A DNA stretch of 64,000 bases. It comes from Halosegnis longus. Lineage in GTDB: Archaea > Halobacteriota > Halobacteria > Halobacteriales > Haloarculaceae. The notes under the pieces were generated by a model. The model ran no database searches, was not told where the DNA came from, and was given only the letters and a program-made list of their open reading frames with translations. Numbering within the stretch: position 1 is the stretch's first letter; each line of letters opens with the position of its first letter. The stretch lies in contig NZ_QKNW01000001.1 in assembly GCF_009663395.1 (NCBI RefSeq), positions 1,550,001-1,614,000 of the forward strand, given 5' to 3'. Shown here piece by piece: positions 27,763 through 54,868 of the stretch. The translations under genes and the position numbers were made by a program.

Positions 27763-28028
27763 CGTCGAGACGCGAGATCGAGCGGCGGCTCGACCACCTC
27801 GAAGCACGCACGCGCACTCGCAGCTCCCCATCTCAAGCCGAACTGACCGCCGAGCAGCGAGCACAGATTGACGCGGTGTATGCGTCGCTCGATGCTGACC
27901 AACAGGCGTCGCTCGCGGCAGCGCAAGCTCGGCTCGCTGCTGAGCCCGACGACGCGCCCACCGGCGAGTTCGGGCTCACGGATGCTGAGGTCGCCATACT
28001 AGATATCCTGACTGGAGGTGCCCCATGA
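27759..28028 (+). CDS. Small coiled-coil protein, second gene of the terminase operon
   Basis: An 89-residue acidic, Ala-rich helical protein (MTSRREIERRLDHLEART). It starts inside the previous gene's stop (ATGA overlap) and overlaps the next small frame in the same way. The C-terminus (LTDAEVAILDILTGGAP) is hydrophobic. There is no known domain that I recognise. It may be part of a packaging complex, as a guess from context only. Confidence 0.7.
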   Translation: MTSRREIERRLDHLEARTRTRSSPSQAELTAEQRAQIDAVYASLDADQQASLAAAQARLAAEPDDAPTGEFGLTDAEVAILDILTGGAP

Positions 28029-28219
28029 CTGCACAACGGACCAGCGACGTCGCATCGCGGCGCGTGCGGCCAGGACTGCCCCCCGCTGCCCTGCCAGCCG
28101 CCTGGGTGGGAGCGCGGGAGAGTCCGAAAACGCGCTGGCATGAGACACTAGATACGACACGACAGTGTCGGGGGTCCCCAGGGGAGACCAGCCAAGCGAC
28201 CGTGGAGAGTGGCCAATGA
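28025..28219 (+). CDS. Short basic protein overlapping both neighbours
   Basis: A 64-residue frame (MTAQRTSDVASRRVRPGLPP) that begins in an ATGA overlap with the upstream gene (28025-28028) and ends in an ATGA overlap with the terminase start (28216-28219). Overlaps of this type at both ends are strong evidence for a translated gene. The product is Arg/Pro-rich and basic, unlike the acidic proteins around it, which might suit nucleic acid binding. No family is recognised. The protein text itself is unremarkable, so the call rests on the overlaps. Confidence 0.55.
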   Translation: MTAQRTSDVASRRVRPGLPPAALPAAWVGARESPKTRWHETLDTTRQCRGSPGETSQATVESGQ

Positions 28220-33135: not shown

Positions 33136-34122
33136 ATGCGAATACTCGTCACCGGCGGTGCCGGGTTCATCGGCGGCCATCTCGCGGAACGTTTTGTTGT
33201 AGATGGACACGATGTTGTCGTGTTAGACAACTTCGATCCTTTCTACGATACACGAATCAAGGACCACACCGTCGAAATCTGCCGCGAACGCGCCGACGAG
33301 GGCAATGGTTCTTACCAACTTATTGAAGGTGATGTTCGAAACGCCGACCTGATTACCGATCTGGTCGAAGAAGCCGATTACGTCTATCACCAAGCTGCGC
33401 AGGCGGGCGTACGTCCGAGCGTCGAGAATCCTCGCAAGTATGACGAAATTAACGTTGATGGTACGCTGAACGTCCTCGATGCAGCTCGTGACACCGATAT
33501 CGAACGAGTTGTGCTCGCATCGTCATCGTCGGTGTATGGCAAGCCAGAATATCTCCCCTACGACGAGTCACATCCGACGACGCCTGTAAGTCCCTACGGG
33601 GCTTCGAAGCTGGCAGCCGAACGGTACACTTGTGCCTACAGCGAGGTCTATGACTTACCAGCAGTCGCATTACGGTATTTCACGGTGTACGGCCCGCGGA
33701 TGCGGCCGAACATGGCTATCTCGAATTTTATCTCTCGGTGTTTGAACGGTGAGCCGCCAGTCGTGTACGGTGACGGCACGCAGACGCGCGACTTCACATT
33801 CATCGAAGACGTGATCGAAGCGAACGTCGCGTTACTGTCTGAAAACGCTGCAGACGGTGAGGCAGTCAATATTGGAAGCACCGATAATATAAAGATTCAT
33901 ACACTAGCAGAGGAGATACGAGATCAATTAACTCCAGATTTGGAGATAGTATTCGCCGACCGCCACGACGCTGATGCTGAGCACACTCACGCTGACAGTT
34001 CGAAGGCGTCGAAATTGTTCGGCTACGAACCAAGTCGGACGATTCGGGAGGGTGTCCGAGAGTTTGTCGATTGGTATCATGCTAATCGGGAGTGGTATGA
34101 ACCGTTGGTTCGAGATTCGTAA
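33136..34122 (+). CDS. NAD-dependent epimerase (UDP-glucose/glucuronate 4-epimerase-like)
   Basis: A 328-residue extended SDR: GGAGFIGGHLAE for NAD, DNFDPFYDTRIK (an NF-DPFYD motif typical of UDP-glucuronate 4-epimerases), ASSSSVYGKPEYLP, SPYGASKLAAE with the catalytic Tyr and Lys, and YGDGTQTRDFTFIEDV. It most likely interconverts UDP-hexoses or UDP-hexuronates at C4. It opens the glycan island and its codon use is between core and island style. It precedes the flippase gene on the same strand. Confidence 0.9.
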   Translation: MRILVTGGAGFIGGHLAERFVVDGHDVVVLDNFDPFYDTRIKDHTVEICRERADEGNGSYQLIEGDVRNADLITDLVEEADYVYHQAAQAGVRPSVENPRKYDEINVDGTLNVLDAARDTDIERVVLASSSSVYGKPEYLPYDESHPTTPVSPYGASKLAAERYTCAYSEVYDLPAVALRYFTVYGPRMRPNMAISNFISRCLNGEPPVVYGDGTQTRDFTFIEDVIEANVALLSENAADGEAVNIGSTDNIKIHTLAEEIRDQLTPDLEIVFADRHDADAEHTHADSSKASKLFGYEPSRTIREGVREFVDWYHANREWYEPLVRDS

Positions 34123-34384: not shown

Positions 34385-36190
34385 GTGACCGATACAGAAT
34401 CTAAACAAATCAACCGTTACGAGCAGATCCGTGCCCTCGTTCGAGTTGCGAAATTTCGGCCCGTTTTTACTGCTGTGATTATCACTGCTGGCGTCTTCGC
34501 AGCGGCTCTCGAAGCGGTTGGACTCAGCTTTATATTACCTATCGTCGAGATTGTGCAGGCACCGGGTGATCCCGCGGCCAATGCAGATGGTATGCTATTG
34601 GCCTTCGTAACGACATACCGGACGCTTGGTGTCCCATTTACGCTCGGAACTATAGTCGCTGGCGTGAGCCTTGTACTCACAGTTCGATGGAGCCTGACGT
34701 TTATTGTGAGATGGCTGCGCGGAGTACTCGTCGTTGATTATACCCGAGAATTACAGACACAAGCGTTCAGTAACGCACTCGACGCACGAACCGATTACTT
34801 CGACAGAGAAGGCTCGGACGACATTCTTAATGCGATTGTGACGCAGGCTGAATATGCTGCCCGCGTCATTCGGTACGTCGTTAATCTTATTGAACAAGGT
34901 CTTCTAAGCCTAATTTACCTTGTCATAGCGTTCCTTCTCTCTCCTTCTCTGACAATATTTGCTATCGCGTTTCTCGGTGGATTTTCAATTGTGTTTCGGT
35001 ACATTCTCGAGTCAGGATATGATATTGGGGATCGCGTAGCCGATGCTAACGAACGCGTCCAACAGGCAGCACAGGCAGGAACTCAAGGAATCAGGGATAC
35101 GAAATTGTTTGGGCTTAAGAATGAACTCTTCGGTGATTTCTTGAGTGCCGTAGAGGATTTTGCCGATTCAAGTATTAAACAAAAACGTAACCAACAGGCA
35201 ATCCAAAATTTCTACAACCTTCTAACTGCGATATCAGTGTTTATACTGATCTATATCTCCATTGTATTTGCTGAGATGTCGCTTGGATCGCTTGGCGTCT
35301 TCCTCTTTGCTATGTTTAGACTGGGGCCAAAGGTAAGCAACCTCAACACGAAACTATATCAAATAGAAAATAACCTCCCCCACCTTGTTCGAACTCAACA
35401 GTTCATTGATGAACTTACTCGGAATCAAGAACCAGACAAAGAAATAGAGTCAGCGATAGACAAGGTTCGAACGATCACATTTGAGGATATCCACTTCTCT
35501 TATCAAGGACAGGACGGTAAGGCACTTTCCGGGATTTCTCTAGATTTCGAAAAAGGTGAATTTATCGGGTTTGTCGGTCAGTCTGGTGCTGGAAAATCGA
35601 CGATTGTGTCGTTACTGGCACGCCTATATGAACCTGACTGTGGTGAGATTCGAGCAAATGGCCGCTCAATTCACGAAATGGATATTGATAAATGGCGAGA
35701 TCAGATCGCAGTTGTTCAGCAGGACCCGTATATCTTCAACGATACGCTACGATATAATCTCACTATTGGGAACCGTAATGTCTCTGTGGAAGAACTAGAC
35801 AAGGTCACTAGGATTGCTAAGGTAGACGAGTTTTTCGATGAATTGCCTAACGGGTACGAAACGCACCTGGGAGATCAGGGCGTTCGTCTTTCAGGTGGAC
35901 AACGTCAGCGCGTTGCACTGGCCCGGGCATTATTGAAAGAAGCTGACGTGCTGGTACTTGATGAGGCCACAAGTGATCTTGACTCAACACTAGAAAAAGA
36001 GGTTCAAAGGTCTATTGAGAACCTAGAACGTGACTACGCAATAGTTGGAATTGCCCATCGATTATCAACAGTACAGAATGCTGACCGAATTTATACGATC
36101 GATTCAGGAAAAATAATTGAGTTTGGTTGTCACGAAGAGCTAATTGAAAAGAATGGACAGTATGCTGAACTGTATGGTGTCCAATCTTAA
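34385..36190 (+). CDS. ABC transporter with fused membrane and ATPase domains (PglK/MsbA-like flippase)
   Basis: A 601-residue half-transporter starting at a GTG (MTDTESKQINRYEQ). An N-terminal membrane domain of about six helices (1-330) is followed by an ATPase domain: Walker A GQSGAGKS, LSGGQRQRVALARALL signature, Walker B VLVLDEATSDLD, and the H-loop IVGIAHRLST. Proteins of this type export lipid-linked glycans (PglK, WlaB) or lipids (MsbA). Placed in a glycan island, flipping of a lipid-linked oligosaccharide is the likely job. An AT-rich promoter-like tatatttatta lies at about 34303. Confidence 0.9.
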   Translation: MTDTESKQINRYEQIRALVRVAKFRPVFTAVIITAGVFAAALEAVGLSFILPIVEIVQAPGDPAANADGMLLAFVTTYRTLGVPFTLGTIVAGVSLVLTVRWSLTFIVRWLRGVLVVDYTRELQTQAFSNALDARTDYFDREGSDDILNAIVTQAEYAARVIRYVVNLIEQGLLSLIYLVIAFLLSPSLTIFAIAFLGGFSIVFRYILESGYDIGDRVADANERVQQAAQAGTQGIRDTKLFGLKNELFGDFLSAVEDFADSSIKQKRNQQAIQNFYNLLTAISVFILIYISIVFAEMSLGSLGVFLFAMFRLGPKVSNLNTKLYQIENNLPHLVRTQQFIDELTRNQEPDKEIESAIDKVRTITFEDIHFSYQGQDGKALSGISLDFEKGEFIGFVGQSGAGKSTIVSLLARLYEPDCGEIRANGRSIHEMDIDKWRDQIAVVQQDPYIFNDTLRYNLTIGNRNVSVEELDKVTRIAKVDEFFDELPNGYETHLGDQGVRLSGGQRQRVALARALLKEADVLVLDEATSDLDSTLEKEVQRSIENLERDYAIVGIAHRLSTVQNADRIYTIDSGKIIEFGCHEELIEKNGQYAELYGVQS

Positions 36191-37403
36191 GATGATTTTA
36201 ATACTTTTATAAAACTTTGACGGTAATAAGTTAACTCCTCCCCGGGCCTGTGAGTCGTCTCCCTCGTAGAGTTCAATTACTAAGGCAATCCGTAAGTGTT
36301 AGCACTCTGCCACAAGCTCTGATTGGAGAGGCGATGGGATTTCACCAATCATAACTGTAGGAGCGACCAGGAAATGTTCCAATAGTTGGTGCGAATATCG
36401 ACTTTAGACGCCTATTTTAGAGACGAAAACCTCGCTGTCTTGAAGTTGAGTCCCAACTATCTGCTGTGTTTAATCGATCAGTGTCGGTCAATGACTGCCT
36501 CGCTCATCTTTGCATCTTGAACTAATGGCATGACCTAGGCGGTGGCAATAAGCGATGATGTCATTATGAATCTCTTGTCGTGCACACGTGCATTGCGACG
36601 TAGTTCGAATTGTTCTAACCAGTGCAATGTCATCACGCTAAAACCTACGCTACAGGTTATGTTACAGCTAGCAACATCATGCCGGGCGTCACGCGCGAAG
36701 TCCCTCCAGCCAACAGCAAACCGCCCTCAACGGATTCCTCACCGCATACGATCAGGAAGAAGACCAATTCAATCATGAAAGAGTCAAAAACCTAGAAAAA
36801 CGCGAAATGTGTTGGCCGAAAGACGGCTACATTATCCTCAATGACACAATCACCGCGAAAGCCGGGGACGAGTCAACGGTGTCGGCGCTCTCGTGGTCAC
36901 ACTGAACATGACATTGTAAGGGGCCAAGATCTCATTTATGCCTCGTTCACTCAACCGCTGACACTAACGTGCAATGCTGAGTGTCTTGGAGATTACATAC
37001 AGGCACTCGGAAATCTCTGATAGAACACAACTTCAACTTTGTCAAGATCATTAATAATCGGTAGGATACATTAATGTGAGTGATGCTATTGGCGATGAGA
37101 AATCTCCTCGATGAACTCTGGATCACAAAGGGACACATTTCGCGTAAATGCGGTTCTCTAACCGTATCGGGCACACTAAACACAGTCAGACTGTGAGTCT
37201 CAGAATACCGTCTGAACTATCGGACCTATGGCGGAATTGGGCTTGAATCATGCATCTATCTTGGTCTCTGTCCCCACAGAGCTGTCACACTTGCAGTCAC
37301 CATCGAGAAAACGACGTTGCTAGTTCCACGACCGCACTATAAAAACGATTCTGTATTACCGCTAAGCCGCAATCTCTATATCTATGGCTTAGTACGATGG
37401 AGT
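36191..37403. other. AT-rich spacer with a decayed transposase
   Basis: No intact gene in 1.2 kb. Apart from the DDE transposase remnant listed separately (36660-37020), the sequence is AT-rich and frames are short. The FkbM gene's promoter should lie at the right end; an AT-rich cactataaaaacgat occurs at about 37334-37348. Confidence 0.5.
36660..37020 (+). pseudogene. Decayed DDE transposase fragment
   Basis: Plus-strand text QTALNGFLTAYDQEEDQFNH, REMCWPKDGYIILNDTITAKAGDE and, after a frameshift, GQDLIYASFTQPL follows the N-terminal order of a haloarchaeal DDE transposase (D-x-x-I-I-x-D-D-T-x-x-K, then GQDLIYA). The rest of the protein is missing. It is probably of the IS701/IS4-like group. 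The family name is less certain than the transposase call. Confidence 0.6.
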
Positions 37404-38246
37404 ATGGCTCAACTCCCTATTCAATTTGCTAGAGAGGTGCTCCCCAGACCAGTGAAGAAGAAACTGTCCCCCGTGTATAACCAATGCCGCAGGAGATATT
37501 TCCAGTCTCGTGTCCTAACTGGCTACAATAATGTTAGATATTCCTACAGTGGGGTGAGTTATGAGATGTCCTATACAACAGATAGTGCTGACAAGTTCCG
37601 AAATATTATCAAAAATAAAGAAATAAAAGCAGAGCAGGTGAATCTTAAATACATAGCATCAGACAACAACATAGATGCTTTTGTAGATGTTGGAGCCCAT
37701 TTTGGCACGTATTCTGTAATCGGTAGTCAATTAAATCCAGGAGCTCGGGTCTTTGCATTTGAGCCAGATGAATATAATCGCTCTGTGCTGAGCCATGTTC
37801 TCAGCATTAATGACATACAAGTAGACATACGACCTGAGGTTGTCACTGATCACACAGGCAAAACAATATTCTATACCGATGATTCTAAAGGATCAGAAAG
37901 TCATTCAACTAACCCTAGTAACAAGGGAAAAAGAACGCGAAAAAATACTATCTCATTATCTGACTTTTGTGCCACCAAAGATATTCAAAGTTTGTTTGTT
38001 AAGATTGATGCAGAAGGGAGTGAAGCAAAAATATTAAAAGATATATCCTCTGCGAACTTTTCACACATTGAGGGGATTGTAGAACTCCATCCTGATAAGC
38101 TCAAACCGGATACTGGGGACGTTGTGTCAATTATCCAAAAGAGATTTGAACAGTGTGAATTCCTTGGCGATTCGTGCGAAAACCACCCAAGAGAAGAATC
38201 AATTGAATATAAATATAACCGTCCAATATACTACTTCAAAAATTAA
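37404..38246 (+). CDS. FkbM family SAM-dependent methyltransferase
   Basis: A 280-residue protein beginning at ATG 37404 (MAQLPIQFAREVLPRPVKK); a TTG start 87 bases earlier is possible but less likely. The SAM site is FVDVGAHFGTYSVIG, then VFAFEPDEYN, and the FkbM C-terminal motif LFVKIDAEGSE. These enzymes put methyl groups on sugar hydroxyls. It directly abuts the GT8-like gene (stop TAA followed at once by ATG), so they are co-expressed. It is AT-rich, unlike the flanking core genes. Confidence 0.88.
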   Translation: MAQLPIQFAREVLPRPVKKKLSPVYNQCRRRYFQSRVLTGYNNVRYSYSGVSYEMSYTTDSADKFRNIIKNKEIKAEQVNLKYIASDNNIDAFVDVGAHFGTYSVIGSQLNPGARVFAFEPDEYNRSVLSHVLSINDIQVDIRPEVVTDHTGKTIFYTDDSKGSESHSTNPSNKGKRTRKNTISLSDFCATKDIQSLFVKIDAEGSEAKILKDISSANFSHIEGIVELHPDKLKPDTGDVVSIIQKRFEQCEFLGDSCENHPREESIEYKYNRPIYYFKN

Positions 38247-39128
38247 ATGAGTAAAAATCGTGGGATTCTCTACATGGTCAGTGGTGAGCAATTTGTTGAT
38301 GAAGCCATATATTCTGCACAATCTGCGAACACCCATATGCCGGAGGTTGATACGGCAATTGCAACTACCGAGGTAAATCAAGATCTGACCACTTTTGATT
38401 ATGTTATTGAATTAGATGAAGCCCAACGGAAGGTCGTAGAAGGAAGAAACTGGTTGATTGACTCAACTATCAAGCCAGATTTGAGTCCTTTCGAACAAAC
38501 ATTATATTTAGATAGTGATACATATATCGCCAATGATGTGAGCGAACTATTTGGATTACTAGATAAATTTGACCTTGCGATAACAAGAGTGCCACAACAA
38601 CCTCCCGTCCCAGAGCTACCGGAACCATGGCACTTGTACAATTGTGGTGTGATATTGTACCGAGACTCACAAGAGGTGCGACACTTCCTGAATCGATGGT
38701 CCGAGATATATAATCAAATCCTAGAAGATCAAGAACAACCAGAGGATCAACCCGCTTTTGCTAAGGCGTTATACGAGTGTGATGATCTTCAATGGTATAC
38801 GCTTCCTAGGCGCTATAACGTTCGCTTTCCACGCCGGGGAGTGTTGGCCGATGAAGCTAAAATAATACACGGACGTCACCCTGCTGGTCTCGACAAGGTA
38901 TCTTCCGAGTTGAATCAGTCGAAAGGCCTTCGCGTATTTCGTGAAAGGTCATTCCGTTTCACTCCTGCGACTGTCGTTTATGATAGACCAACTCTCCGCT
39001 ACTCTTTAGAGAATTACGTTACAGAATATGGACTGTGGTATACATTAAAAAGAGCAAGTGCATACGCAGTAGATGCGGTTTTGGGCACAGATATGCGTAA
39101 AGAGATAGGAAAAGAAAATAATGATTAA
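38247..39128 (+). CDS. GT8-like glycosyltransferase
   Basis: A 293-residue protein with the GT-A layout: ILYMVSGEQFVDEAIYSAQS at the start, TIKPDLSPFEQTLYLDSDTYI with the metal-binding D-S-D motif near residue 90, YNCGVILYRDS, and IIHGRH near residue 210, probably the second metal or donor contact. It transfers a sugar from a nucleotide donor. It begins immediately at the end of the FkbM gene and overlaps the polymerase gene by 8 bases. Confidence 0.8.
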   Translation: MSKNRGILYMVSGEQFVDEAIYSAQSANTHMPEVDTAIATTEVNQDLTTFDYVIELDEAQRKVVEGRNWLIDSTIKPDLSPFEQTLYLDSDTYIANDVSELFGLLDKFDLAITRVPQQPPVPELPEPWHLYNCGVILYRDSQEVRHFLNRWSEIYNQILEDQEQPEDQPAFAKALYECDDLQWYTLPRRYNVRFPRRGVLADEAKIIHGRHPAGLDKVSSELNQSKGLRVFRERSFRFTPATVVYDRPTLRYSLENYVTEYGLWYTLKRASAYAVDAVLGTDMRKEIGKENND

Positions 39129-40302
39129 CGCTACCGATAGACCACGAACGCTCGAAGTGTTATCATTACTGCTTCTGTGTAGTGGGGTCATTTTAACCCC
39201 ACTCAGATACCATTTACCCCCTGATATCTACGGCAATATATTTCTCCTCTCCCTACTGTTTGTTTGGACATTGAAAGAATTGTCCATTGAACGAGAGATA
39301 GAATTGACATATTTCCACATATTTGGGATATTATTTATTTGCCTTGCACTTGCCAGCACCTTTTGGAGTGAAAGCATAAGCAGATCTTTTCACTTCGTAC
39401 TACCATGGATTGCGTCAATATTGTTTATTGTATCAATCCAGAATAGCATCAATCATAAGCATCAGGTAGATCTCCTGTTAATACTATACTTGTCTTTAAC
39501 ACTAGTGTTCGCTGCTGGTATAATATACAATTATATTGTCCAATCGCCATGGCAGGCCTCTAGATATTCATTCCTTGGAGAAAACCCAAATAGAATGGGA
39601 TTCTTTCTTGCGGTTGGGGTGCCTATATCACTGAGATTCTTGCATAGCAATAACCGCACTTTTTATACTCACTTCATATTTGTTTTCTGTGCTGTTATTA
39701 TTCTAATTTCCGCAATTTTCTTGACTGGGTCACGCACAGCAATAGTCGCTCTACTCCCTTCTGTCCTTGTTGTAATTTATTTCAGCATATATATGTATAG
39801 CATAATCTCAAAGAAGATGGCTTTTTTAATCTCGATAGCGTCAATCCTACCTCTATTCTATTTTCTGCCTGTTGAGGAGATCTGGATTCGTATCAGCAGC
39901 ATTTATTCAGAGGTAGTGAACCTATCTTTTGGTTCCAGGTATGTGATCTGGACTGAGGGGTTTCAGGTATTTGCCAATTCGCCTACCATCGGTGTTGGAT
40001 ATGGTGGATTTCGCGCGGCTGCTGAACCAATTCTTGGATATGAGGTTCCACCAGAGAGCACATATCTAGGGGCTCTATACCAATTGGGAATTATTGGTGC
40101 TATCTTGTTTACACTAGTATTGACTTCATTATTCAAAATGGCGAAGTCTAATCTGTTATGGTTAAGTTTCCTTATCACGAATCTTATTCTAATGATAACA
40201 AATGATTGGCTACATTATCCCACAATGTGGATTCTATTTGCTATTATGGTAGTTGATCTCACCTTGGATAATCCTGTCGAACGCACGACAAAAACGCAGT
40301 AG
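39121..40302 (+). CDS. O-antigen ligase/Wzy-type polymerase
   Basis: A 393-residue integral membrane protein with ten or more helices. The large loop near residues 265-310 contains GSRYVIWTEGFQVFANSPTIGVGYGGF, the typical Wzy/WaaL loop with conserved Arg and the G-x-G-x-G-x-F type motif. Middle helices include SFLGENPNRMGFFLAVG and FLTGSRTAIVALL, as in O-antigen ligase family members. It would join or polymerise lipid-linked repeat units outside the membrane. It overlaps the GT gene upstream by 8 bases. Confidence 0.85.
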   Translation: MINATDRPRTLEVLSLLLLCSGVILTPLRYHLPPDIYGNIFLLSLLFVWTLKELSIEREIELTYFHIFGILFICLALASTFWSESISRSFHFVLPWIASILFIVSIQNSINHKHQVDLLLILYLSLTLVFAAGIIYNYIVQSPWQASRYSFLGENPNRMGFFLAVGVPISLRFLHSNNRTFYTHFIFVFCAVIILISAIFLTGSRTAIVALLPSVLVVIYFSIYMYSIISKKMAFLISIASILPLFYFLPVEEIWIRISSIYSEVVNLSFGSRYVIWTEGFQVFANSPTIGVGYGGFRAAAEPILGYEVPPESTYLGALYQLGIIGAILFTLVLTSLFKMAKSNLLWLSFLITNLILMITNDWLHYPTMWILFAIMVVDLTLDNPVERTTKTQ

Positions 40303-42771: not shown

Positions 42772-43761
42772 ATGCCGAGTTTAAGTCGTGCTAAGGAAGT
42801 TCTTGAAGAGGATGGAGTCTTAGGACTTTTGCAAAAATGTCAGATGTTTGTCACACGAGAAGGTATCAATACTTACATCATGACACACTCACGATTAAAA
42901 AAGGCCTATTATGAACGGTTTGATCATGGTGTCACGGATATGATGGCGGAAGATTGGGATCTTCTGCTAATTCTAGATGCATGCCGCCACGACCTTTTCG
43001 AAGAAGCAAATACGATTCCAGGGGATTTCTCTTATCGAATTTCCCCGGGTTCATCGACATCTGAATTTTTGGATACAACAATTGTCGGGGAAAATTTCCA
43101 TGATACAGTGTACATCACAGCGAATCCACAGCACGTAAAAAAAGATATTAGAGAAAGTTTCTACGATATCATCCCTGTTTGGAAAACTAACTGGGATAAA
43201 TCTCTTCGAACGGTTCATCCCCAGTCAGTTGTTGAGGCTGCACTAGATGCAAATAAGCGTTATCCAAATAAGAGGCTTCTCATTCATTTTATGCAGCCAC
43301 ATTATCCATTTATTGGTGGAAAAAATAAACAAATCGATGAACAACGTGGGTCCAGTATTGCTGGTGACTACCATGATCTAAAAACCGAGGGTCTCAAGAC
43401 AGTATGGGAGAAGTTGGAAGATGGTGATCTTAGCTACGAAGCCGTCTGGAAAGGGTATAAGAATAATCTTGAATTGGTGCTCCCACATGTGCAAGAAATT
43501 GCTGACAAATGTGAAGGAAAATCGGTTGTCACCTCTGATCACGGGAATCTTTTAGGAGAGTTTGTTTTCTCAAGAATGCAGAGAATTTACGCACATCCCA
43601 ACTCTCTCCACGTTCCCAATCTTGTCAAAGTCCCGTGGTTAGAAATTCCCTATGAGCGCCGACGAAAGGTAGTTTCCGAACCACCCAGAAACTCCCCGAA
43701 CCACGAAAAAGATAATACAGCTGTCCAGGAACGGCTTCAAGATTTGGGATATACAGGATAG
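42772..43761 (+). CDS. Alkaline phosphatase/sulfatase-fold hydrolase or transferase, paralogue 1
   Basis: A 329-residue protein starting at ATG 42772 (MPSLSRAKEVLEEDGVLG), the position that matches its two paralogues downstream. Motifs shared by all three are LLILDACRHDLF (metal-binding Asp), SPGSSTSEFL (the Thr or Ser is the probable nucleophile), HFMQPHYPFIG, and VVTSDHGNLLGE (metal-binding Asp-His). This is the core of the AlkP superfamily, whose members cleave or transfer sulfate, phosphate or phosphoglycol groups. No signal peptide is seen. In this context it probably decorates or trims the glycan or a polyprenyl-linked sugar. Confidence 0.8.
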   Translation: MPSLSRAKEVLEEDGVLGLLQKCQMFVTREGINTYIMTHSRLKKAYYERFDHGVTDMMAEDWDLLLILDACRHDLFEEANTIPGDFSYRISPGSSTSEFLDTTIVGENFHDTVYITANPQHVKKDIRESFYDIIPVWKTNWDKSLRTVHPQSVVEAALDANKRYPNKRLLIHFMQPHYPFIGGKNKQIDEQRGSSIAGDYHDLKTEGLKTVWEKLEDGDLSYEAVWKGYKNNLELVLPHVQEIADKCEGKSVVTSDHGNLLGEFVFSRMQRIYAHPNSLHVPNLVKVPWLEIPYERRRKVVSEPPRNSPNHEKDNTAVQERLQDLGYTG

Positions 43762-44458
43762 CATTCAATTGTTGATGTCTGATACTATTCTTGGAGTATC
43801 GTGGAAGGACTTATTACTGCAACAGATGGGGATTTCTATAACGTCCCTGCAGACAACCTGCCAGCCCGGCCTTCGTAGCGTGTTCTCAGTTTGCCGAGAG
43901 ATGTATATTAAAAATCAAAAAAGAATCTCTGTCAGGTATCGCTATATCCAGTATTTGGACGCTGCTTCTTGAACGCTGGCGGTAGTATGACACATGAAGT
44001 AGCTTGAAGATGTAATATAGCACCATACCATGTGCTTTATTTTGAAAGTCTAGGTACTACTGTAGCTGAATACTGCTGCTGTCTTGCGGTACTTGACTGG
44101 CAGCCTTCTATTCTGTTACTTGAATACAACCGTACAGCAACTTTACGTTAGCAACTTGAGTAGATCTTTCCAAGCCTCCAAGCGAATATACGACGACTAC
44201 GGTTTCTGAAAAAACGAGTGAGAGATCGACTCAACTCATGATCCAGCACGAACTGGAGACGATGTTTGGAGCAGTTGAGTACGCTATCGATAACCCCAGC
44301 AAATGACGGTCCAAGCGATGCTGATTTAGTTCGACCACTGTACCAACGGTTGTGTTCATTTGATACTCATACGAAATCCTAGGACGCAACAACGATGAAA
44401 TTACTATGAATATCTCGAAATATCCTGGCGAAAATAGAAGAGATAGGCACACACAACC
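43762..44458. other. Spacer between convergent blocks, nothing recognised
   Basis: No convincing gene is present in about 700 bases. Frames of up to 73 residues exist on both strands but their text is not protein-like and carries no motif. It separates the plus-strand AlkP-fold gene from the minus-strand operon that ends at 44459. Confidence 0.5.
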
Positions 44459-45676
44459 TCACGTCTTTCTCGAAAGCAGATCTTTATACATCTGCTCAAT
44501 GCGCGGGAGAATTCTCCTAGCTTTAAACTCTTTAGCTTGGGTTTGAGCACTATTTGAATATCGTTGTAAACCAGAATCGATGAGATTCTCAATCGTTAAC
44601 GCTATTTCCTCTGTATCACCACTTGCTGTTTCACCCCCGTCACCAATGATATCGCTTATAGACCCATATTCAGTTGAGATAATAGGTGTGCCCGTTGCAA
44701 GGGCTTCCAAGTACACTCGTGCAAGTGGTTCGTCCCACCGACCAGGGTACAGAAAGATATCATGACTAGAATATATCTCTGGCAATTCTTTGTTGGAAAC
44801 GAACCCGGCGAATGTAACGATATCATCAAGCTCTGCTTCACGAACACTCTGTATAAGTTCACCACGCATAGCGCCGTCTCCAACGATAGTTAATTCGAAG
44901 GAATAACGCTCAGAGTCCTGAAGGTACTCAAGTATTGGTATGAGACGGTCGACGCCTTTGTGACGTTCCAGTGAACCGACGTACAACAACTGATATGGTG
45001 GATTAAACCTACTCTGGTGTTCTATCAAGAAATCTTCGTCAAGAATATGTGGTATCACATTAATACGATTCTCTGGGAACCCAAACTGGACGTAATTTTG
45101 TTTAACATGACTAGAAGGAGCTCTAAATGCGTCAATCTGCTCAATATTTCGTTCCCCATTTCTAACGAGGTAATCGTTGACGAATAGACTAGCGGCGCGT
45201 TTGAATGAATTACCATTTCGACGGTTGCTACTTGTCGTGATACACTGTACGCACTTTACTGGCGATTTTTCAGTGCATTTTTTCTCGCCTAAATAGAGTA
45301 AATCGTTTTTTGGACAAACTCCGCCGTAAGCATTGAGAGTTACAACTGTCTTCGATTCTGTTTTTACAGATATTGACTCTAGAGCAGGAATTGTCGGCAT
45401 TATATAGCTATGTACTATATCAAATGCAGAAAATTCGTCCATACGCTTCTTAATTAAATGATTCAGTTCCAAATTTCCTTGGGGTAGATAGCTTGTTCCT
45501 AGATACCGGGTCTCTACTCCATTCGTAATAGCATCGCTGTCAGGAACCTCGGTAGGGCAAAAAACAACTACGTCGTGCCCGCGCTCTACTAATCCACGGA
45601 CGGTTTGGGTGGCGCTATGAGTTGCTCCTGTCCCTTCATCTCCTGGCCAGCTTGGATGAATAAATGCAATTTTCAT
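44459..45676 (-). CDS. Glycosyltransferase family 4
   Basis: A 405-residue GT-B enzyme. The N-terminal domain begins MKIAFIHPSWPGDEGTGATH with the Gly-rich loop, and has a cysteine set in the middle (CPKNDLLYLGEKKC ... VKCVQC) that may bind zinc. The C-terminal domain shows YVGSLERHKGVDRLI, IVGDGAMRGEL and EALATGTPIISTEYG, the usual GT4 nucleotide-binding sequence with Glu residues. It transfers a sugar to the growing lipid-linked glycan. It is the last gene of the minus-strand operon, 3 bases after the AlkP-fold gene. Confidence 0.88.
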   Translation of the reverse strand: MKIAFIHPSWPGDEGTGATHSATQTVRGLVERGHDVVVFCPTEVPDSDAITNGVETRYLGTSYLPQGNLELNHLIKKRMDEFSAFDIVHSYIMPTIPALESISVKTESKTVVTLNAYGGVCPKNDLLYLGEKKCTEKSPVKCVQCITTSSNRRNGNSFKRAASLFVNDYLVRNGERNIEQIDAFRAPSSHVKQNYVQFGFPENRINVIPHILDEDFLIEHQSRFNPPYQLLYVGSLERHKGVDRLIPILEYLQDSERYSFELTIVGDGAMRGELIQSVREAELDDIVTFAGFVSNKELPEIYSSHDIFLYPGRWDEPLARVYLEALATGTPIISTEYGSISDIIGDGGETASGDTEEIALTIENLIDSGLQRYSNSAQTQAKEFKARRILPRIEQMYKDLLSRKT

Positions 45677-45679
45677 CTG

Positions 45680-46603
45680 TTACTTATACCCTAGTTGTTT
45701 TAGACGCTCACCGATGGTACTATTATCAACACCAGAGCATACACTGTCTGGCGGTTCTGCTTTTATCTCAGGACGTGATCCATTTTTGATAGTAAGCCAA
45801 GGAATCTTAACCAGTTCGTCTGCATAGATACCGCGGGGATGTCCCCAGATCTTCACAGGTATTGGGAACCCTCTTTCACCAAGCATGTTTCCGTGGTCAG
45901 AGGTAATTACAATTTTCCCCGAAATATCATCTATAAGTTGCTCAATATATGGTAGCACTTCTCTCAGATTCTGGTTATAATAGTATTCTATTTTATATTC
46001 CTCAGGATCCACTCTTCCACTCATGATCCGCTTCCAAATATTATCTCCAGAGGCAGCAGGATTGGCTAAATGGCTTTCCGCACTCCTGGTTGTATTGCTG
46101 ATGAATGGGTAATGTGGCTGTATATAATGAATTATATGTCGCTTATTCGGATACTGCTCTACCGATTCTATCGCAAATTCGGTCATTGTCTCTGGTAAGA
46201 CAGTACCGGTCTCTTTATCCCATCCAGATTCTTTCCAAACATCAATTATAGCATGGAGGTCTGGATTGATTCGACTCCAATTTCGATGGAGTTGGGGATT
46301 TGCTGTGGTGTAAACCGTATCATGTAGACATTTACCGCCAATATTCGCCTCTAAATATTCTGGCGTATTTGAACCCTGAGAAATCCTGTATTCTAAATTT
46401 CCGGAGATTGTATTATTATTGCGAAACATATCATATCTACATGCATCAAGAATTATCAATACGTCCCAGTCTTCGTTGAATATATCTGACCCATTTTTAT
46501 TATGGTTAGATTTGTTAAAATCTCTAAAATACAGACTGTTTAATTCGATGGCGGCCATGCGGGGATTCGTTAAACCCTGTTTAATCATTTCAAAATTGTA
46601 CAT
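45680..46603 (-). CDS. AlkP/sulfatase-fold protein, paralogue 2
   Basis: A 307-residue protein (MYNFEMIKQGLTNPRMAAIE), clearly homologous to the other two: LIILDACRYDMF, SQGSNTPEYL, HYIQPHYPFIS and VITSDHGNMLGERGFPIPVKIWGH, with the shared C-terminal end ERLKQLGYK. The start at 46603 aligns with that of paralogue 3. It lies between two GT4 genes with gaps of 31 and 3 bases. The role should be phospho- or sulfo-group transfer or removal; the substrate is unknown. Confidence 0.8.
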   Translation of the reverse strand: MYNFEMIKQGLTNPRMAAIELNSLYFRDFNKSNHNKNGSDIFNEDWDVLIILDACRYDMFRNNNTISGNLEYRISQGSNTPEYLEANIGGKCLHDTVYTTANPQLHRNWSRINPDLHAIIDVWKESGWDKETGTVLPETMTEFAIESVEQYPNKRHIIHYIQPHYPFISNTTRSAESHLANPAASGDNIWKRIMSGRVDPEEYKIEYYYNQNLREVLPYIEQLIDDISGKIVITSDHGNMLGERGFPIPVKIWGHPRGIYADELVKIPWLTIKNGSRPEIKAEPPDSVCSGVDNSTIGERLKQLGYK

Positions 46604-46634
46604 ATTTTATTCTTGCTCAAGATCAGTATCGATA

Positions 46635-47807
46635 TTAACTAGCATCACAGTTCTCAAGATCATGGGTGTGTTCCCTGATATTATCATTGGAGTATGTATT
46701 ATTAATGACATCGCAAAATGCATCAACTAGTGCCTCGTTAGAGTACTTATTACGGACTCTCTCATGAGCTGATCGACCCATTTGTCCTCGTAAATCAGCA
46801 CTATCTATGAGCTGTTGAAGATGGTGTTCAAATCCATCGATATCATCTGGGGTGGTCACAAATCCTTGTTCCCCATGTTCGACATTGATAGTTATTTCAC
46901 CAACATTACTAGCAACAATAGGCTTGCCAGCCGCCATAGCTTCTATAACAGTAATGCATAATCCTTCATAATGTGATGGTTGAAAATATATGTCGACAGT
47001 AGAAAGAAAATCTGGAACTGAGTTAACATGGCCGAGGAGAGAAACGTTGGTCAGGCTGCGGTCACTTATGATCTCGGTTAATTCCTGTCGTCGAGGGCCA
47101 TCCCCAGCAATTGCCAAATGAACATTTTTATCAGAGAATCGTTCAGCAACCTCAATAATTGCGTCATGGTTCTTTGGACGTATAAGATTCCCGACCGTCC
47201 CTATAATAATGGCATTCTCAGAAACCTCGTTAAGTTTACTACCACCGACAACCGATTCATTGAGCCTTTTCAATGGCATCGAGGGGCACGTATATTTCTC
47301 AATCGAAAGACCAGCTATAGGGACTGTCCAAATCCTATCACGATCCAGTCCTTGTTTTTCGATCAACATTGAATAAACTGCTTTCGAGTCAGCGAGAATC
47401 CCATCACATTGACCGATAGTAACTTTGTCAACTAGGCGACGAAGCTCTGTCTTGAATTCGGTGTTATGAGACCAGTTCAAAACTGTGTCTACCCCAAAAA
47501 TAGCTCCGAATAACCGCGAAATGATTTCTGCATGATAGATAGATCCTACCAAGATATCGGTGTCTCGAAGAATCGATGTAATCGGTAATAGTTTATCAAT
47601 CCGGTGTTTATTTTCAATATCAAGATCTATTACCTTAACATGATTAGGGATACTGGGGAGTATAGTTTTATCACCCCCGTACAATGCGACGATGGTGATA
47701 TCAAATGCTTCTGGAGAAAGTCCACTTAGTAATCGAGCCATTCCGACTTCTGCCCCGCCTGTTTCGAGGCCGCTAATGAAATATGTTAGATTAGGTGTCT
47801 CTTCCAT
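46635..47807 (-). CDS. Glycosyltransferase family 4
   Basis: A 390-residue GT-B protein. The N-terminal YFISGLETGGAEVGMARLL is the acceptor-side G-G-A-E motif of this family, and the C-terminal GTVGNLIRPKNHDAIIEVA, IAGDGPRRQEL and EAMAAGKPIVASNVG form the donor site. It adds a sugar during glycan assembly on the cytoplasmic side. It starts 3 bases after paralogue 3 of the AlkP-fold set ends. Confidence 0.9.
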   Translation of the reverse strand: MEETPNLTYFISGLETGGAEVGMARLLSGLSPEAFDITIVALYGGDKTILPSIPNHVKVIDLDIENKHRIDKLLPITSILRDTDILVGSIYHAEIISRLFGAIFGVDTVLNWSHNTEFKTELRRLVDKVTIGQCDGILADSKAVYSMLIEKQGLDRDRIWTVPIAGLSIEKYTCPSMPLKRLNESVVGGSKLNEVSENAIIIGTVGNLIRPKNHDAIIEVAERFSDKNVHLAIAGDGPRRQELTEIISDRSLTNVSLLGHVNSVPDFLSTVDIYFQPSHYEGLCITVIEAMAAGKPIVASNVGEITINVEHGEQGFVTTPDDIDGFEHHLQQLIDSADLRGQMGRSAHERVRNKYSNEALVDAFCDVINNTYSNDNIREHTHDLENCDAS

Positions 47808-47810
47808 ATT

Positions 47811-48710
47811 CTATACTTTATATCCTAATTGACGCAGTCGGTCGTCAACTGATTCTCCTCCTTGTTTTACTTCCTCTATGTCTGGCTCTTCGCGCTTGAT
47901 ACTCTTTCTTTCCGTAAAATCGCATGTGAACCACGGCACATCAATCAGCTCATCTACATAAATACCATCGAAATGACCATATGTTTTTAGTGGTATTGGC
48001 AATATTCGTTCTCCAAGGAGCTCCCCATGATCAGAAGTGATGACTGTTTTACCATTTAACACGTCAACTAATTGTTCAACGTGTTCAAGAACCAATTCTA
48101 AGTTTTCACGATAAGCCCGCCAAAGTAATTCGTCTGTGGCCTCTTCACTCCTTCTTAATGTCTCAATTAATCCTGGACTGACCGCAAAATGTTCTTTACC
48201 AGTTGGGCCAATATAGGGTTGATGTGGTTGCATATAATGGACGATAAGCCGCTTGTTTGGGAAGTTCTCAGCGACCTGCAATGCTTGCTGGGTTACTGTT
48301 TCTGGGCGAACAGACATGTCAGCTAAATCAAGGTGGTCTGCTTGAAGGTTGATAAACCGGTGTACTTCCGAATTAATTTCATCACGAAGTTTAGCGAACC
48401 ACTCATTAGCTGAAATATATACTGTGTCGTATAAAACCTTATTTGAGAAGTTGGCACGAACAAACTCTGACGACATGCCTCCTCTTGACTGCCTTTTCTC
48501 CAGCGTACCCGACAGAGAGATTTGCTTCTCAAATACATCATACCGGCAGGCATCAAGAATAATCAAATTATCCCAGTCTTCATAAGAGAAAATATCTGTT
48601 CCCTCAGGGTAATACGAACGGTGTCGACCTCTCGTATAGTACAACTTATTTACTTCCCGGAGCAAAGCCGTAGGATCCGTCAGTCCTTTTTTAATATCTT
48701 TCAGGTTCAT
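47811..48710 (-). CDS. AlkP/sulfatase-fold protein, paralogue 3
   Basis: A 299-residue protein (MNLKDIKKGLTDPTALLREV). It keeps LIILDACRYDVF, SRGGMSSEFV, HYMQPHQPYIG and VITSDHGELLGERILPIPLKTYGH, and ends DRLRQLGYKV. It differs from the others in the nucleophile region (Ser-Ser in place of Ser-Thr). It is transcribed with the GT genes on both sides. Confidence 0.8.
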   Translation of the reverse strand: MNLKDIKKGLTDPTALLREVNKLYYTRGRHRSYYPEGTDIFSYEDWDNLIILDACRYDVFEKQISLSGTLEKRQSRGGMSSEFVRANFSNKVLYDTVYISANEWFAKLRDEINSEVHRFINLQADHLDLADMSVRPETVTQQALQVAENFPNKRLIVHYMQPHQPYIGPTGKEHFAVSPGLIETLRRSEEATDELLWRAYRENLELVLEHVEQLVDVLNGKTVITSDHGELLGERILPIPLKTYGHFDGIYVDELIDVPWFTCDFTERKSIKREEPDIEEVKQGGESVDDRLRQLGYKV

Positions 48711-48760
48711 ATTCTATGATTGCTTTATTCATTAGCGCTCTTCGCTTATACGGTTCCTGA

Positions 48761-49567
48761 TCATCGTGCAAATATATCGTAAATTCTTTTTCCTATATAT
48801 GATGGCAGAAGCCTCGGAGGCACGCGAAGACAGAGATGCTGCAACGTATCACGGGGCGAAGCAACACCAAGTTTTCGTAGTTTCCACGCCATTTGAATCT
48901 CGGCCATTGCATAATTTAGCCCCTCTCGGCGATCAACAAGGTTGTTTACATTTGCTCGGACGAGTGTTTGATTAAGATTGCGGAACTGAAGTCCAGCGGC
49001 AAGACCTCGCGCCCATAAATCCCAGTCCTCCATCAACGGGAAATCACGATACCCGCCCGCGTCGAGAACCGCTTCACGATCAAACATCACAGTCGGATGA
49101 TTCACAGGACATCGCCACGGCATCCACTCGGCGATTTCATTATGAGATGTAGGAACCTTGCGTGTTCGTTCTGGAGGTTCGGGATCATCGCGGAATTCAG
49201 CGAGATGCGAGCCAACGATATGTGCATTAGTTTCTTTCAGAACATTTAACTGGTGTGTAAATCGCTCCGGTTCGGAAATGTCATCAGCATCCATTCGTGC
49301 AACAAAAGGCATTAAACATCCCTTGAGACCAGCTTGAAGTACTCCTCCTAATCCTTTGGCGTCAGGAAAGTGTTCGTGCCGGCTAATAGAGTGTGTATTG
49401 ACCAAATCATTAATCGCCGTTTCAGTATCTTCTGTCAGCGACTGATTGGTTACCAAAACGATTTCCGCCGGTGGTGACGTTTGCTCAGTGATGCTTCGAT
49501 GTGCTCGATTCAAATCACTTGGATCGCTCGTAGCGGCTACAGGGAATAAAACAGAGATTTCGCCCAT
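48761..49567 (-). CDS. Glycosyltransferase family 2
   Basis: A 268-residue GT-A enzyme starting MGEISVLFPVAATSD at 49565-49567. The donor site has VLVTNQSLTEDT and FVARMDADDISEPERF with the D-A-D-D metal motif; then CPVNHPTVMFDREAVLDAGGYRDFPLMEDWDLWAR with the E-D-W-D acceptor motif. It is the first gene of the minus-strand operon GT2-AlkP-GT4-AlkP-GT4. Its codon use is more GC-rich than the genes after it. Confidence 0.9.
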   Translation of the reverse strand: MGEISVLFPVAATSDPSDLNRAHRSITEQTSPPAEIVLVTNQSLTEDTETAINDLVNTHSISRHEHFPDAKGLGGVLQAGLKGCLMPFVARMDADDISEPERFTHQLNVLKETNAHIVGSHLAEFRDDPEPPERTRKVPTSHNEIAEWMPWRCPVNHPTVMFDREAVLDAGGYRDFPLMEDWDLWARGLAAGLQFRNLNQTLVRANVNNLVDRREGLNYAMAEIQMAWKLRKLGVASPRDTLQHLCLRVPPRLLPSYIGKRIYDIFAR

Positions 49568-49794
49568 TAATCTCGTCCTCCGTTCTGACTCCAACGGCCC
49601 ATTATCGCAATTGACTCAGCACCGATTTATAAATGAATCGATGGTCGAGAGCTGATTTGACTGTTGTCTATCTGGATTCTGGTTATCATAACGTCAGATG
49701 TCCTAGATTTAAACGAAACCGTTCAGCCAACAACAGCGATTAGTTGCTCTGTTGAAATCCTTGTGAAATCATATATTCTGATTGTGGTTCGACG
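49568..49794. promoter_or_regulatory. Likely promoter region of the GT2-AlkP-GT4 operon
   Basis: The 227 bases upstream of the GT2 gene hold no gene. The minus strand has AT-rich stretches, such as the complement of atttataaatgaatc near 49625-49639, which could be a TATA element. No further motif is recognised. Confidence 0.3.
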
Positions 49795-50293: not shown

Positions 50294-51300
50294 TCAAAAG
50301 CGTAACGTAGGAAACTTGCGATGGAACGTCCGCGCTGTGAGGTCCGGGCAGTACAGGATGAAGTGAGAGGACCGATGGCTAAGAAGCGCTTCTACTGGTA
50401 CCGATGGCCGAGGCGTCGGACCCGCCGTCATCATCTGCCCCGAACGGACGGCGACATCCGGATCCCGAGGTTTGTCCCCGCCGTTCCCCCTCATCGACCG
50501 TTGGGAATCGTTAGTCTCGAGTTCCCGCTCTGTCGCTATTACTTGGAAGTCCTCAGTCGATGGGAAGTCGTCACGAATCAACGCGAGCATCGCGGTCAGC
50601 CCCGTTCTATCTGGCCTCGTCAACGAAGTCGGCGAGATCCGCTCCCGCATCCCAGCCGTATGCGTCGCGAGATTCGGGTACTCAGCATCCGAGAGTGACA
50701 ACAGCATATCGGTCAAATGCGCCCGGAAGGTGGCGGTACGAGCTTCCCTGTCCAGAAAGCCAATCTCAAAGTGTGCAGCCAACTGTCCCGGTCGAAGGAC
50801 CGCCCGGTCGATATCATCCGGTCGGTTCGTCGCCGCAACCACGATAGCCTCACAGTCCTCGTGAGTGAGCTGCGCGAGAAATTCGCTGGTAATCTTCCGG
50901 TCCTTAGCATGCGAACCCTTCCCTGACTATTCGCGCGCTCCGAACAGGTGTTCGGTTTCGTCAAAAAAGATGGCACACGGCCCAATCTGTTTTGCCTTGT
51001 CAAACAGCGTATTCACCCGGTCACTGCTCTCGTTGATCCACCTCGACGTCATGCATGCCGGGGAGAGATCGACGAACCGGACAGTGAGTCCGCCAGCAAG
51101 CGCTCTCGCGAACATCCTCTTTCCCGCTCCCAGTGGGCCATACAGCATGGTGCCGCTCTCAGACTTGACACTGAACCGCGAGAAGCGGTCGTCCCCATCG
51201 CAATGCGCTAGGTTCGAGGACACGGCTCTCGAGATCGGCCTTCACGTCATCGTGGCTGCCGGTGTCGGTGAACTGCTGCGGCGAGTGCTGCCAGTCATAC
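50294..51300 (-). pseudogene. Broken AAA+ ATPase (Cdc48-like) gene
   Basis: Minus-strand pieces read as one AAA protein: KADLESRVLEPSALRWG near 51230, then after a frameshift SVKSESGTMLYGPLGAGKRMFARALAG (Walker A changed from GPPGTGKT), CAIFFDETEHLFGARE (Walker B), a TAG stop at 50927-50929, and in the same frame VVAATNRPDDIDRAVLRPGQLAAHFEIGF (sensor 1 and Arg finger region) and a helical lid. So it holds one in-frame stop, one frameshift and a degraded P-loop. It is a recent pseudogene of a CDC48/FtsH-like unfoldase. Confidence 0.75.
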
Positions 51301-52525: not shown

Positions 52526-53959
52526 CTACCCGTGGTCGTTCGTTTTCGGAGTCACATCGTTCGCAACAATCCACAACTGCCGAATGACGATCTTCAGATC
52601 GAACCAGAACGATTGAGAACGGATATACGCCACATCGTAGCGAAGCTTCTCTTCCGGGTCAAACCCCGTTGCATCGTTAATCTGGGCTAATCCCGTCAGC
52701 CCTGGCTTCACGAACCAGCGTCGCCGCCAGAGATCCGTCCCCGCCTCCATCTCGCTGTCGAGTTCTGGTCGCTCCGGACGCGGGCCAACAACACTCATCT
52801 GGCCACGTAAGATGGCGAGCAACTGTGGAATCTCGTCGAGATGCGTTCGCCGCAAGAACCCACCAACTCGCGTCACACGCGGGTCACGACCACCGTCATC
52901 CTCCTCACTGAGTGTCGCGCCACTCCCCGCTTCAGCATCGGTGACCATGCTCCGAAATTTCGCGACAGTGAACGTATCACCGAAGGTCGCGGTCCGTGTC
53001 TGCCGGTACAACACCGGGCCGGGACTGTCGAGCTTTATCGCGACAGCAATCACCAACAGAAGCGGACTCAACACGAGCAGTGCCGTCCCCGCAAACGCCA
53101 CATCGAACAGTCGCTTCGTCACCCGGTCGAACCAGTCCCATGGCTCAAGATCAATCTCTACCAGTAGGCCGTCGCCCGGCTCATTAGTCAACACTACGTC
53201 AGCGTGAGTGCGATGGACCTTGGCCATAACTCCGTACTCGTAGCAGGTGTCTAATGTGCCGAAGAACTCTGCGCGGTCTGGTTGTGTGAACGCGAGTATG
53301 GCTGTATCGATGTCATAGTCAACGAGAATATCGTCAAGCCGTGAGAGTCCCCCAAGATTCGATACGTCCATCAACGCGTCTGCCGTTCCGCCGTCAGTCA
53401 GTTCGGGTGCGCGTGGCGTGAACGCCGCTTCCGAATCGGGTACTGGGGGCGATACGTAGCCAAGCACTGCCCCGTCAATCGTCGGCAGTATCTCTGCCAT
53501 CACCTCGGGGTCGTCCCCGACGATGATTGTCCGCTCGCCATCTGCCCGTGGTCGCTGCCGAATCACGACAAACCACACCGGCACCGTACTCACAAGTACC
53601 ACGCCCGTCACGATGAGCGTCGCTCGTGGCAGCGCGTACGTCGCATCCGCGTAGCCAATCGTCGCCATCGCGAGCAGCGCAACCGTGACACGCTTGAGCG
53701 CGTAAAACCACGTATCGAGGATCCGGCGTGGCCGTGGCTTGTACAGCGGAAACAGTGCGCCAACAACAACGGCGGTCGCGATTGCAGCCTCATACACGAA
53801 CTCTGCTCCGGCTGCCCCATCAAACGGCAGCGACCCCACGACGGGTAACAGGGAAAAGAGCCGCTGGACCATGGCGCTGTTGGCGACTGCGACAGCCCCA
53901 ATTGTCAGGAGGGCCGCGCCACCAACGCTGACGATTCGGTAGCCCCACCGCCCACTCAT
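52526..53959 (-). CDS. Exopolysaccharide polyprenyl glycosylphosphotransferase (WbaP/WcaJ type)
   Basis: A 477-residue protein with four or five N-terminal helices, a Rossmann-like middle part (ERTIIVGDDPEVMAEI) and the catalytic C-terminal domain: KRLFDVAFAGTALLVLSPLLL, FTVAKFRSM, RRTHLDEIPQLLAILRGQMSVVGPRPERPEL, with the Asp-Glu pair and P-R-P motif. It puts the first sugar phosphate onto a polyprenyl phosphate, beginning assembly of the lipid-linked glycan. This form is the archaeal relative of WcaJ/WbaP. It returns to GC-rich codon use. Confidence 0.93.
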   Translation of the reverse strand: MSGRWGYRIVSVGGAALLTIGAVAVANSAMVQRLFSLLPVVGSLPFDGAAGAEFVYEAAIATAVVVGALFPLYKPRPRRILDTWFYALKRVTVALLAMATIGYADATYALPRATLIVTGVVLVSTVPVWFVVIRQRPRADGERTIIVGDDPEVMAEILPTIDGAVLGYVSPPVPDSEAAFTPRAPELTDGGTADALMDVSNLGGLSRLDDILVDYDIDTAILAFTQPDRAEFFGTLDTCYEYGVMAKVHRTHADVVLTNEPGDGLLVEIDLEPWDWFDRVTKRLFDVAFAGTALLVLSPLLLVIAVAIKLDSPGPVLYRQTRTATFGDTFTVAKFRSMVTDAEAGSGATLSEEDDGGRDPRVTRVGGFLRRTHLDEIPQLLAILRGQMSVVGPRPERPELDSEMEAGTDLWRRRWFVKPGLTGLAQINDATGFDPEEKLRYDVAYIRSQSFWFDLKIVIRQLWIVANDVTPKTNDHG

Positions 53960-54066: not shown

Positions 54067-54816
54067 TCAGTTCTCGCCGTCGGACGCACTGGCCACCTGC
54101 TGTTCGCCGTCCTGTAACCGCTCCTCGGCCCGATCGCGGTCCTCCGGATAGCCGATATCCATCCGCCAGCCGTCCATTCGAACCGCATCAATTGTCCGCC
54201 CGGAGTGAATTAGCAAATCAATCGCATCGGAAATCTCGTACTCGCCGCGATCCGACGGCTGCACCAAATGACACGCATGGAAAATCGCCGGTGAGAAGGT
54301 GTAGAACCCGGTCATCACGAGGTTCGACGGCGGGTCGTCAGGCTTCTCGACAACAGCGGTAATCTCACCGTAGTCGTTCGTGTCACACACGCCGTACCGC
54401 GAGGCCTCGTCCCACGGCACCTCCTCGACCAGAAACGCCGCGTCGGCGCGGTCCTCTCGCTGGCGGTCAACCACGTCCTCCAGATTCGCTCGGAAGATGT
54501 TGTCCCCGAGCATGAGCATGAAGTCGTCGTCGATGTGCTCTTCGACGGTCAGGAGTGCGTGGGCAATCCCGAGTGGCTCGCGCTGGTGACAGTACGTGAT
54601 CGGGACGCCCTCGTACGCGTCCCCGTAGCGCGTAATAATCTGTTCTTTTTTGTAACCAACAACGATATACAGCTCCGTCGCCCCCAACTCGACCAACTCG
54701 TCGAGACAGTACTCCAGGATTGGCTGGCCGTCAACCTCGACGAGTGGCTTCGGTTTGTCGTCGGTGAGAGGGCGCAGTCGCGTCCCCTTCCCGGCCGCAA
54801 TAACGACTGCTTGCAT
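54067..54816 (-). CDS. Glucose-1-phosphate nucleotidylyltransferase (AglF/RmlA-like)
   Basis: A 249-residue enzyme with start ATG at 54814-54816 (MQAVVIAAGKGTRLRPLT); the GTG four codons earlier is less typical. It has the G-x-G-T-R-L-R-P-L-T signature, DDKPKPLVEVDGQPIL with its lysines, MLMLGDNIFRANL with the metal-binding Asp, and VEKPDDPPSNLV. It couples a sugar-1-phosphate to UTP or dTTP, supplying the glycan pathway. In Haloferax, AglF does this for S-layer glycan; one-to-one identity with it is not shown here. Confidence 0.9.
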   Translation of the reverse strand: MQAVVIAAGKGTRLRPLTDDKPKPLVEVDGQPILEYCLDELVELGATELYIVVGYKKEQIITRYGDAYEGVPITYCHQREPLGIAHALLTVEEHIDDDFMLMLGDNIFRANLEDVVDRQREDRADAAFLVEEVPWDEASRYGVCDTNDYGEITAVVEKPDDPPSNLVMTGFYTFSPAIFHACHLVQPSDRGEYEISDAIDLLIHSGRTIDAVRMDGWRMDIGYPEDRDRAEERLQDGEQQVASASDGEN

Positions 54817-54868
54817 ACATTCACACACTGAGTCATGTGTAAAGGGTTTGCCGACTCACCGCCGGAGC

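Follow-up and report, generated by a model that had tools for sequence, protein, structure and literature searches.

Alkaline phosphatase-fold proteins in a variable surface-glycan cassette of Halosegnis longus: probable group transferases related to a presumed Agl30 ortholog

What do proteins of the alkaline phosphatase (AlkP) superfamily do among the glycosyltransferases (GTs) of a haloarchaeal glycan cluster, and which chemical group do they handle? The question is raised by three genes, AlkP-A, AlkP-B and AlkP-C (Table 1), found in a stretch of 64,000 nucleotides of the Halosegnis longus genome (contig NZ_QKNW01000001.1, positions 1,550,001–1,614,000; this whole stretch is termed the window). 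The three genes probably encode cytosolic, AlkP-fold, metal-dependent transferases that modify a lipid-linked surface glycan during its assembly, the group most likely being sulfate, and they are part of what appears to be a variable N-glycan cassette. This is based on the AlkP fold, an intact catalytic site, the lack of a formylglycine motif and of a signal peptide or membrane segment, the position within a glycan cassette, and kinship with the probable ortholog of the sulfotransferase Agl30.

AlkP fold and catalytic site

None of the three proteins reaches the 25-bit cut-off of the Pfam Sulfatase model PF00884 (AlkP-B scores 21.3, AlkP-C 15.4, and AlkP-A has no match), and therefore the AlkP assignment rests on profile searches, motifs and structure models. 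The AlphaFold2 model of AlkP-B has a predicted local distance difference test (pLDDT) score of 91.9 and a predicted template modelling (pTM) score of 0.92, and places Thr80 as the first residue of a helix that spans residues 80–87. The AlkP-A model (pLDDT 83.6, pTM 0.81) finds its best Protein Data Bank folds among phosphoethanolamine transferases. With Foldseek, both models match AlkP members at probability 1.00, with E-values down to 1e-6 and template modelling (TM) scores of 0.4–0.5, which points to a common core rather than close similarity. The first matches of AlkP-B are MCR-2, MCR-1 and EptA (E 2.8e-6 to 1e-5, TM about 0.47), followed by sulfatases and LtaS.

In AlkP-B numbering the catalytic set consists of Asp53, Thr/Ser80, His159, His164, Asp236-His237 and His255, and it is intact in AlkP-A, AlkP-B and AlkP-C. 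An alignment of 102 family sequences has 12 invariant columns, which include D53, R56, H164, D236, H237 and H255; column 80 is Thr in 79 sequences and Ser in 23. The superfamily order D...S/T...DH...H (D53, S/T80, D236, H237, H255) is present in 102 of 102. By its position and conservation, residue 80 is the presumed nucleophile, and at this position AlkP-A carries Thr. Hydropathy analysis shows no signal peptide or membrane segment in the three proteins, as no 19-residue window exceeds 0.84 on the Kyte-Doolittle scale.

The first-pass annotation, which was made from the DNA letters of the window, had described the three genes as AlkP paralogs with GT neighbours, and this description stands: the genes and neighbours are where it placed them, the motifs it quoted are found in all three proteins, both structure models have the AlkP core, and the metal and nucleophile residues are intact in each protein. 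A search of the genome with AlkP-B retrieves AlkP-C (E 2.4e-69, 43% identity) and AlkP-A (E 1.0e-66, 42%). Decayed copies are ruled out by the open frames, the intact residues and, for AlkP-C, a proportion of nonsynonymous differences (pN) of 0.15 vs a synonymous proportion (pS) of 0.93. Recent tandem duplication is ruled out as well, in that the three paralogs fall into three different subclades of a family tree that was built by a quick method, the careful search being unfinished.

Kinship with a presumed Agl30 ortholog and the nature of the group

In Halobacterium salinarum, VNG1056C (Agl30) and VNG1057C (Agl31) belong to the AlkP superfamily and sulfate the N-linked tetrasaccharide, as found by gene deletion and by heterologous expression in Haloferax volcanii, whose pentasaccharide became sulfated (PMC11980604). 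The nearest Halobacterium genome sampled (G053; 83% by S-layer peptide) serves here as a stand-in for Hbt. salinarum. It contains a family member, L143:6413-7393, with a profile E-value of 5e-41 and the same catalytic set as the window proteins, which is 30% identical to both AlkP-B (E 3e-32) and AlkP-C (E 1e-31). This gene adjoins a VNG1057C-like AlkP gene of 459 amino acids, which matches the position of VNG1056C. Its product has an N-terminal hydrophobic stretch at residues 24–42 (that predicted for Agl30 is at 21–39), and it matches peptides translated from the published Agl30 primers, with HLEDLGYL vs HLRDLGYR at the C-terminus and DFGHLDM at the GH motif. These three lines of agreement together make L143:6413-7393 the probable Agl30 ortholog.

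The window proteins thus add members to a kind of protein that was described only recently. Like the presumed Agl30 they share the family and its catalytic residues, and Agl30 is also part of an aglB-anchored glycosylation cluster; they differ in that Agl30 is membrane-bound, whereas they have no hydrophobic N-terminus. They would be homologs rather than orthologs, because the presumed Agl30 sits in a separate clade. Agl31 is a soluble, cytosolic enzyme of the AlkP superfamily that sulfates N-glycans, but it is longer (about 460 amino acids in relatives) and arylsulfatase-like, and the VNG1057C-like neighbour is not matched by the family profile A2 at E 1. The first-pass annotation had left the transferred group open. 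As a caution this was sound, but homology to the probable Agl30 ortholog narrows the choice, and a sulfuryl group is the most likely one.

Several points weigh against this assignment. Agl30-like sequences form a deep clade apart from all three window genes (SH-aLRT 97, quick tree), and at about 30% identity the transferred group could have changed. The identity of the presumed Agl30 is itself deduced, and by way of a Halobacterium relative rather than Hbt. salinarum. VNG1063H, whose translated primers contain the family motif, can be deleted with no effect on the tetrasaccharide (PMC11980604). Among solved structures, the nearest folds belong to phosphoethanolamine transferases rather than to sulfotransferases. 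Finally, ATP sulfurylase above cut-off was not found in the H. longus genome, CysD is represented by partial sub-cut-off matches only, and there is no strong match to adenosine 5′-phosphosulfate (APS) kinase; the best, at 31 bits, is above the Pfam cut-off and may be another P-loop kinase. The searches covered APS kinase, ATP sulfurylase and CysD. A strong APS kinase (E <1e-40) is found in 22 of 293 Halobacteriales genomes. Five Halobacterium genomes (G021, G045, G053, G069, G082) have no ATP sulfurylase above cut-off; these same five are also without a strong APS kinase, and their CysD matches are partial. The gap in sulfate-activating enzymes is not evidence against sulfation, because Halobacterium sulfates its glycans yet shows the same gap.

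An alternative that is unlikely but carries some weight is that a membrane lipid donates phosphoglycerol, phosphoethanolamine or phosphate to the glycan, as with LtaS, OpgB and EptA. The best solved folds are indeed the MCR/EptA/EptC phosphoethanolamine transferases, with LtaS among the matches, Thr or Ser serves as nucleophile, which also holds for enzymes of the LtaS/EptA type, and one relative bears the name ‘LTA synthase family protein’ in its public record. MCR-1, EptA and EptC share with the window proteins the AlkP catalytic core and a transferase chemistry on glycans, but they have only 11–17% identity to them, use a lipid donor, are membrane-anchored and act outside the membrane. LtaS likewise has a membrane domain and an extracellular catalytic domain; no N-terminal transmembrane domain of this type is present in AlkP-A, AlkP-B or AlkP-C. 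In addition, the presumed Agl30, the sole family relative with a measured product, gives sulfate.

A role as hydrolases, with sulfatase or phosphatase activity removing groups from glycans or their precursors, is improbable. A weak Pfam Sulfatase match and a profile match (E 9e-6) between the C-terminal half and choline sulfatase would favour it, and the AlkP core is common to both. Formylglycine, however, arises from Cys or Ser within [CS]xPxR, a conversion that is not expected of Thr (PMC5066984). The motif [CS]xPxR or CxAxR is found at the nucleophile position, Thr or Ser, in 0 of 102 relatives, which rules out a classical formylglycine sulfatase (SulfAtlas S1). Moreover, there is no secretion signal, the clusters are biosynthetic rather than degradative, and the presumed Agl30 adds sulfate rather than removing it.

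If the three proteins are sulfate-transferring enzymes of the kind proposed, Asp53 and Asp236-His237 would hold a metal that activates Thr/Ser80. The acid group would first be taken onto this residue and then be passed to a sugar hydroxyl of a dolichol-linked intermediate, comparable to the role of Thr in phosphoethanolamine transferases. The paralogs may differ in the sugar, or the position, that they modify, and the decorated glycan would then be flipped and handed to a surface protein.

Gene order and the surrounding cassette

AlkP-B and AlkP-C alternate with GT4 genes behind a GT2 gene, as had been noted at first pass; in the run GT2-AlkP-GT4-AlkP-GT4 the gaps, listed by ascending window position and thus from the last GT4 back to the GT2, are 3, 31, 3 and 50 bases. 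AlkP-A takes no part in this, as it is on the opposite strand with the nearest GT 697 bases away. A fourth paralog (C1:1630066-1631079; L008:6066-7082; E 8.6e-54 with AlkP-B) is 16 kb past the window end at 1614000. It has a high guanine-plus-cytosine (GC) content and is located between a UDP-ManNAc dehydrogenase-like (nucleotide-sugar dehydrogenase) gene and a flippase-like open reading frame (ORF).

GT genes are enriched around AlkP genes: 46 of 176 genes at one place from an AlkP gene and 32 of 154 at two places are GTs, vs 26 of 343 from the sixth place outwards (24% at one to two places vs 8%; p 8e-9). Gene calling around the loci was composition-scored and misses a few genes. Part of the gene order is kept between genera, since GT2-AlkP-C-GT4b is collinear in genome G115, with identities of 77, 74 and 59%. 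The run itself and this conserved order might suggest that GT and AlkP genes pair into fixed units, each providing one acid group per added sugar, as the first-pass annotation had proposed, but this is very improbable and the fixed unit can be set aside: a search for the pattern elsewhere finds it in strict form (AlkP-GT-AlkP) at 1 of 77 other loci, an immediately adjacent GT is seen for only 37 of 101 AlkP genes, gene counts are unequal (a Haladaptatus caseinilyticus cluster has one AlkP beside homologs of all three window GTs), and the three AlkPs belong to different subclades.

Table 1. Coordinates of AlkP genes and other glycan-related features in the window
Feature	Position	Strand	Remarks
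S-layer-type surface glycoprotein	21272-23977	-	NF041335 227.7 bits (below cut-off); haloarchaeal signal peptide and PGF-CTERM above cut-off
Short-chain dehydrogenase/reductase (SDR) nucleotide-sugar epimerase/dehydratase	33136-34122	+	Pfam Epimerase E 2.3e-66, GDP_Man_Dehyd E 3.6e-66
ATP-binding cassette (ABC) exporter, MsbA/PglK-like	34385-36190	+	NCBIfam HepA 2.7e-107, MsbA 7.6e-103, under equivalog cut-offs; candidate lipid-linked glycan flippase
FkbM-family methyltransferase	37317-38246	+	TIGR01444 71 bits vs cut-off 37.7
Possible GT8-like glycosyltransferase	38247-39128	+	Pfam Glyco_transf_8 E 0.0012, below cut-off
O-antigen ligase/polymerase-like (Wzy_C)	39121-40302	+	Pfam Wzy_C E 1.7e-15
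AlkP-A	42772-43761	+	AlkP-fold protein, 329 amino acids; open frame from GTG 42631
GT4 glycosyltransferase GT4a	44459-45676	-	Pfam Glycos_transf_1 E 1.1e-29
AlkP-B	45680-46603	-	AlkP-fold protein, 307 amino acids
GT4 glycosyltransferase GT4b	46635-47807	-	Pfam Glycos_transf_1 E 9.4e-34
AlkP-C	47811-48710	-	AlkP-fold protein, 299 amino acids, Ser at nucleophile position
GT2 glycosyltransferase	48761-49594	-	Pfam Glycos_transf_2 E 1.3e-14; heads five-gene run
Polyprenyl-phosphate sugar-1-phosphate transferase (Bac_transf)	52526-53959	-	PF02397 E 8.4e-60; candidate initiating enzyme
AglF, UTP-glucose-1-phosphate uridylyltransferase	54067-54828	-	NF041313 436.5 bits vs cut-off 400
Short AglB-like oligosaccharyltransferase (STT3), 769 amino acids	54869-57178	-	PF02516 E 4.7e-9, PF18079 AglB_L1 E 1.1e-6; TIGR04154 E 2.9e-35, below cut-off

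AglF, an STT3 protein with AglB_L1 above Pfam cut-offs, three GTs, the sugar-1-phosphate transferase and the SDR protein together make up an aglB-anchored N-glycosylation cluster. The canonical AglB of 1082 amino acids is encoded elsewhere in the genome, and because the window STT3 is a second, shorter copy, its role in N-glycosylation is a presumed one. Short AglB-like STT3 copies are also present in three other genomes (G115, G290, G053). The S-layer-type glycoprotein is the likely acceptor of the glycan.

Most glycan genes at 33–50 kb have a GC content of 0.39–0.48 (SDR 0.53), vs about 0.6–0.7 outside. In a comparison of window positions 32000–52500 with a genome of the same genus (G290, contig C6; L178, L179), both flanks show ~82–93% nucleotide identity, with one piece of 75–77% on each side. 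The interior of G290 is a different low-GC gene set, where only the SDR (68%) and the sugar transferase (71%) are kept, and the single AlkP family member of this genome corresponds to the fourth paralog. The low-GC island looks like an exchangeable, species-variable glycan cassette, because the flanks are conserved but the interior genes differ. Within it, a short ORF at 50294–50842, which is possibly a gene fragment, matches proteasome-activating nucleotidase models in their C-terminal part only. The stretch 26009–29676, near the left border, encodes an Orc1/Cdc6-type protein and contains an ORF with weak resemblance to a terminase.

Spread of the family

The family is common among haloarchaea, unnamed, and has no curated model that recognizes it at cut-off. 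Profile A2 matches 270 of the 293 Halobacteriales genomes, in 73 of 81 genera, and a search of 295 genomes of the phylum with profile A3 adds matches in 22 genomes that lie outside Halobacteriales. None of the NCBIfam models matches the AlkP family at cut-off, Pfam Sulfatase matches 18 of 102 family sequences at E 0.001, and plasmid records of family members are mostly labelled hypothetical proteins.

Since canonical sulfate activation is apparently lacking, one may ask which compound donates the sulfate. It is perhaps conceivable, although rather doubtful, that the family represents widespread glycan sulfotransferases of AlkP fold whose reaction passes through a covalent intermediate at Thr/Ser and which use a sulfuryl donor other than 3′-phosphoadenosine 5′-phosphosulfate, in hosts that lack standard sulfate activation. 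More generally, family members are present in most haloarchaeal genomes sampled, many with several copies, and kinship with the probable Agl30 ortholog gives hundreds of genes a function that can be tested.

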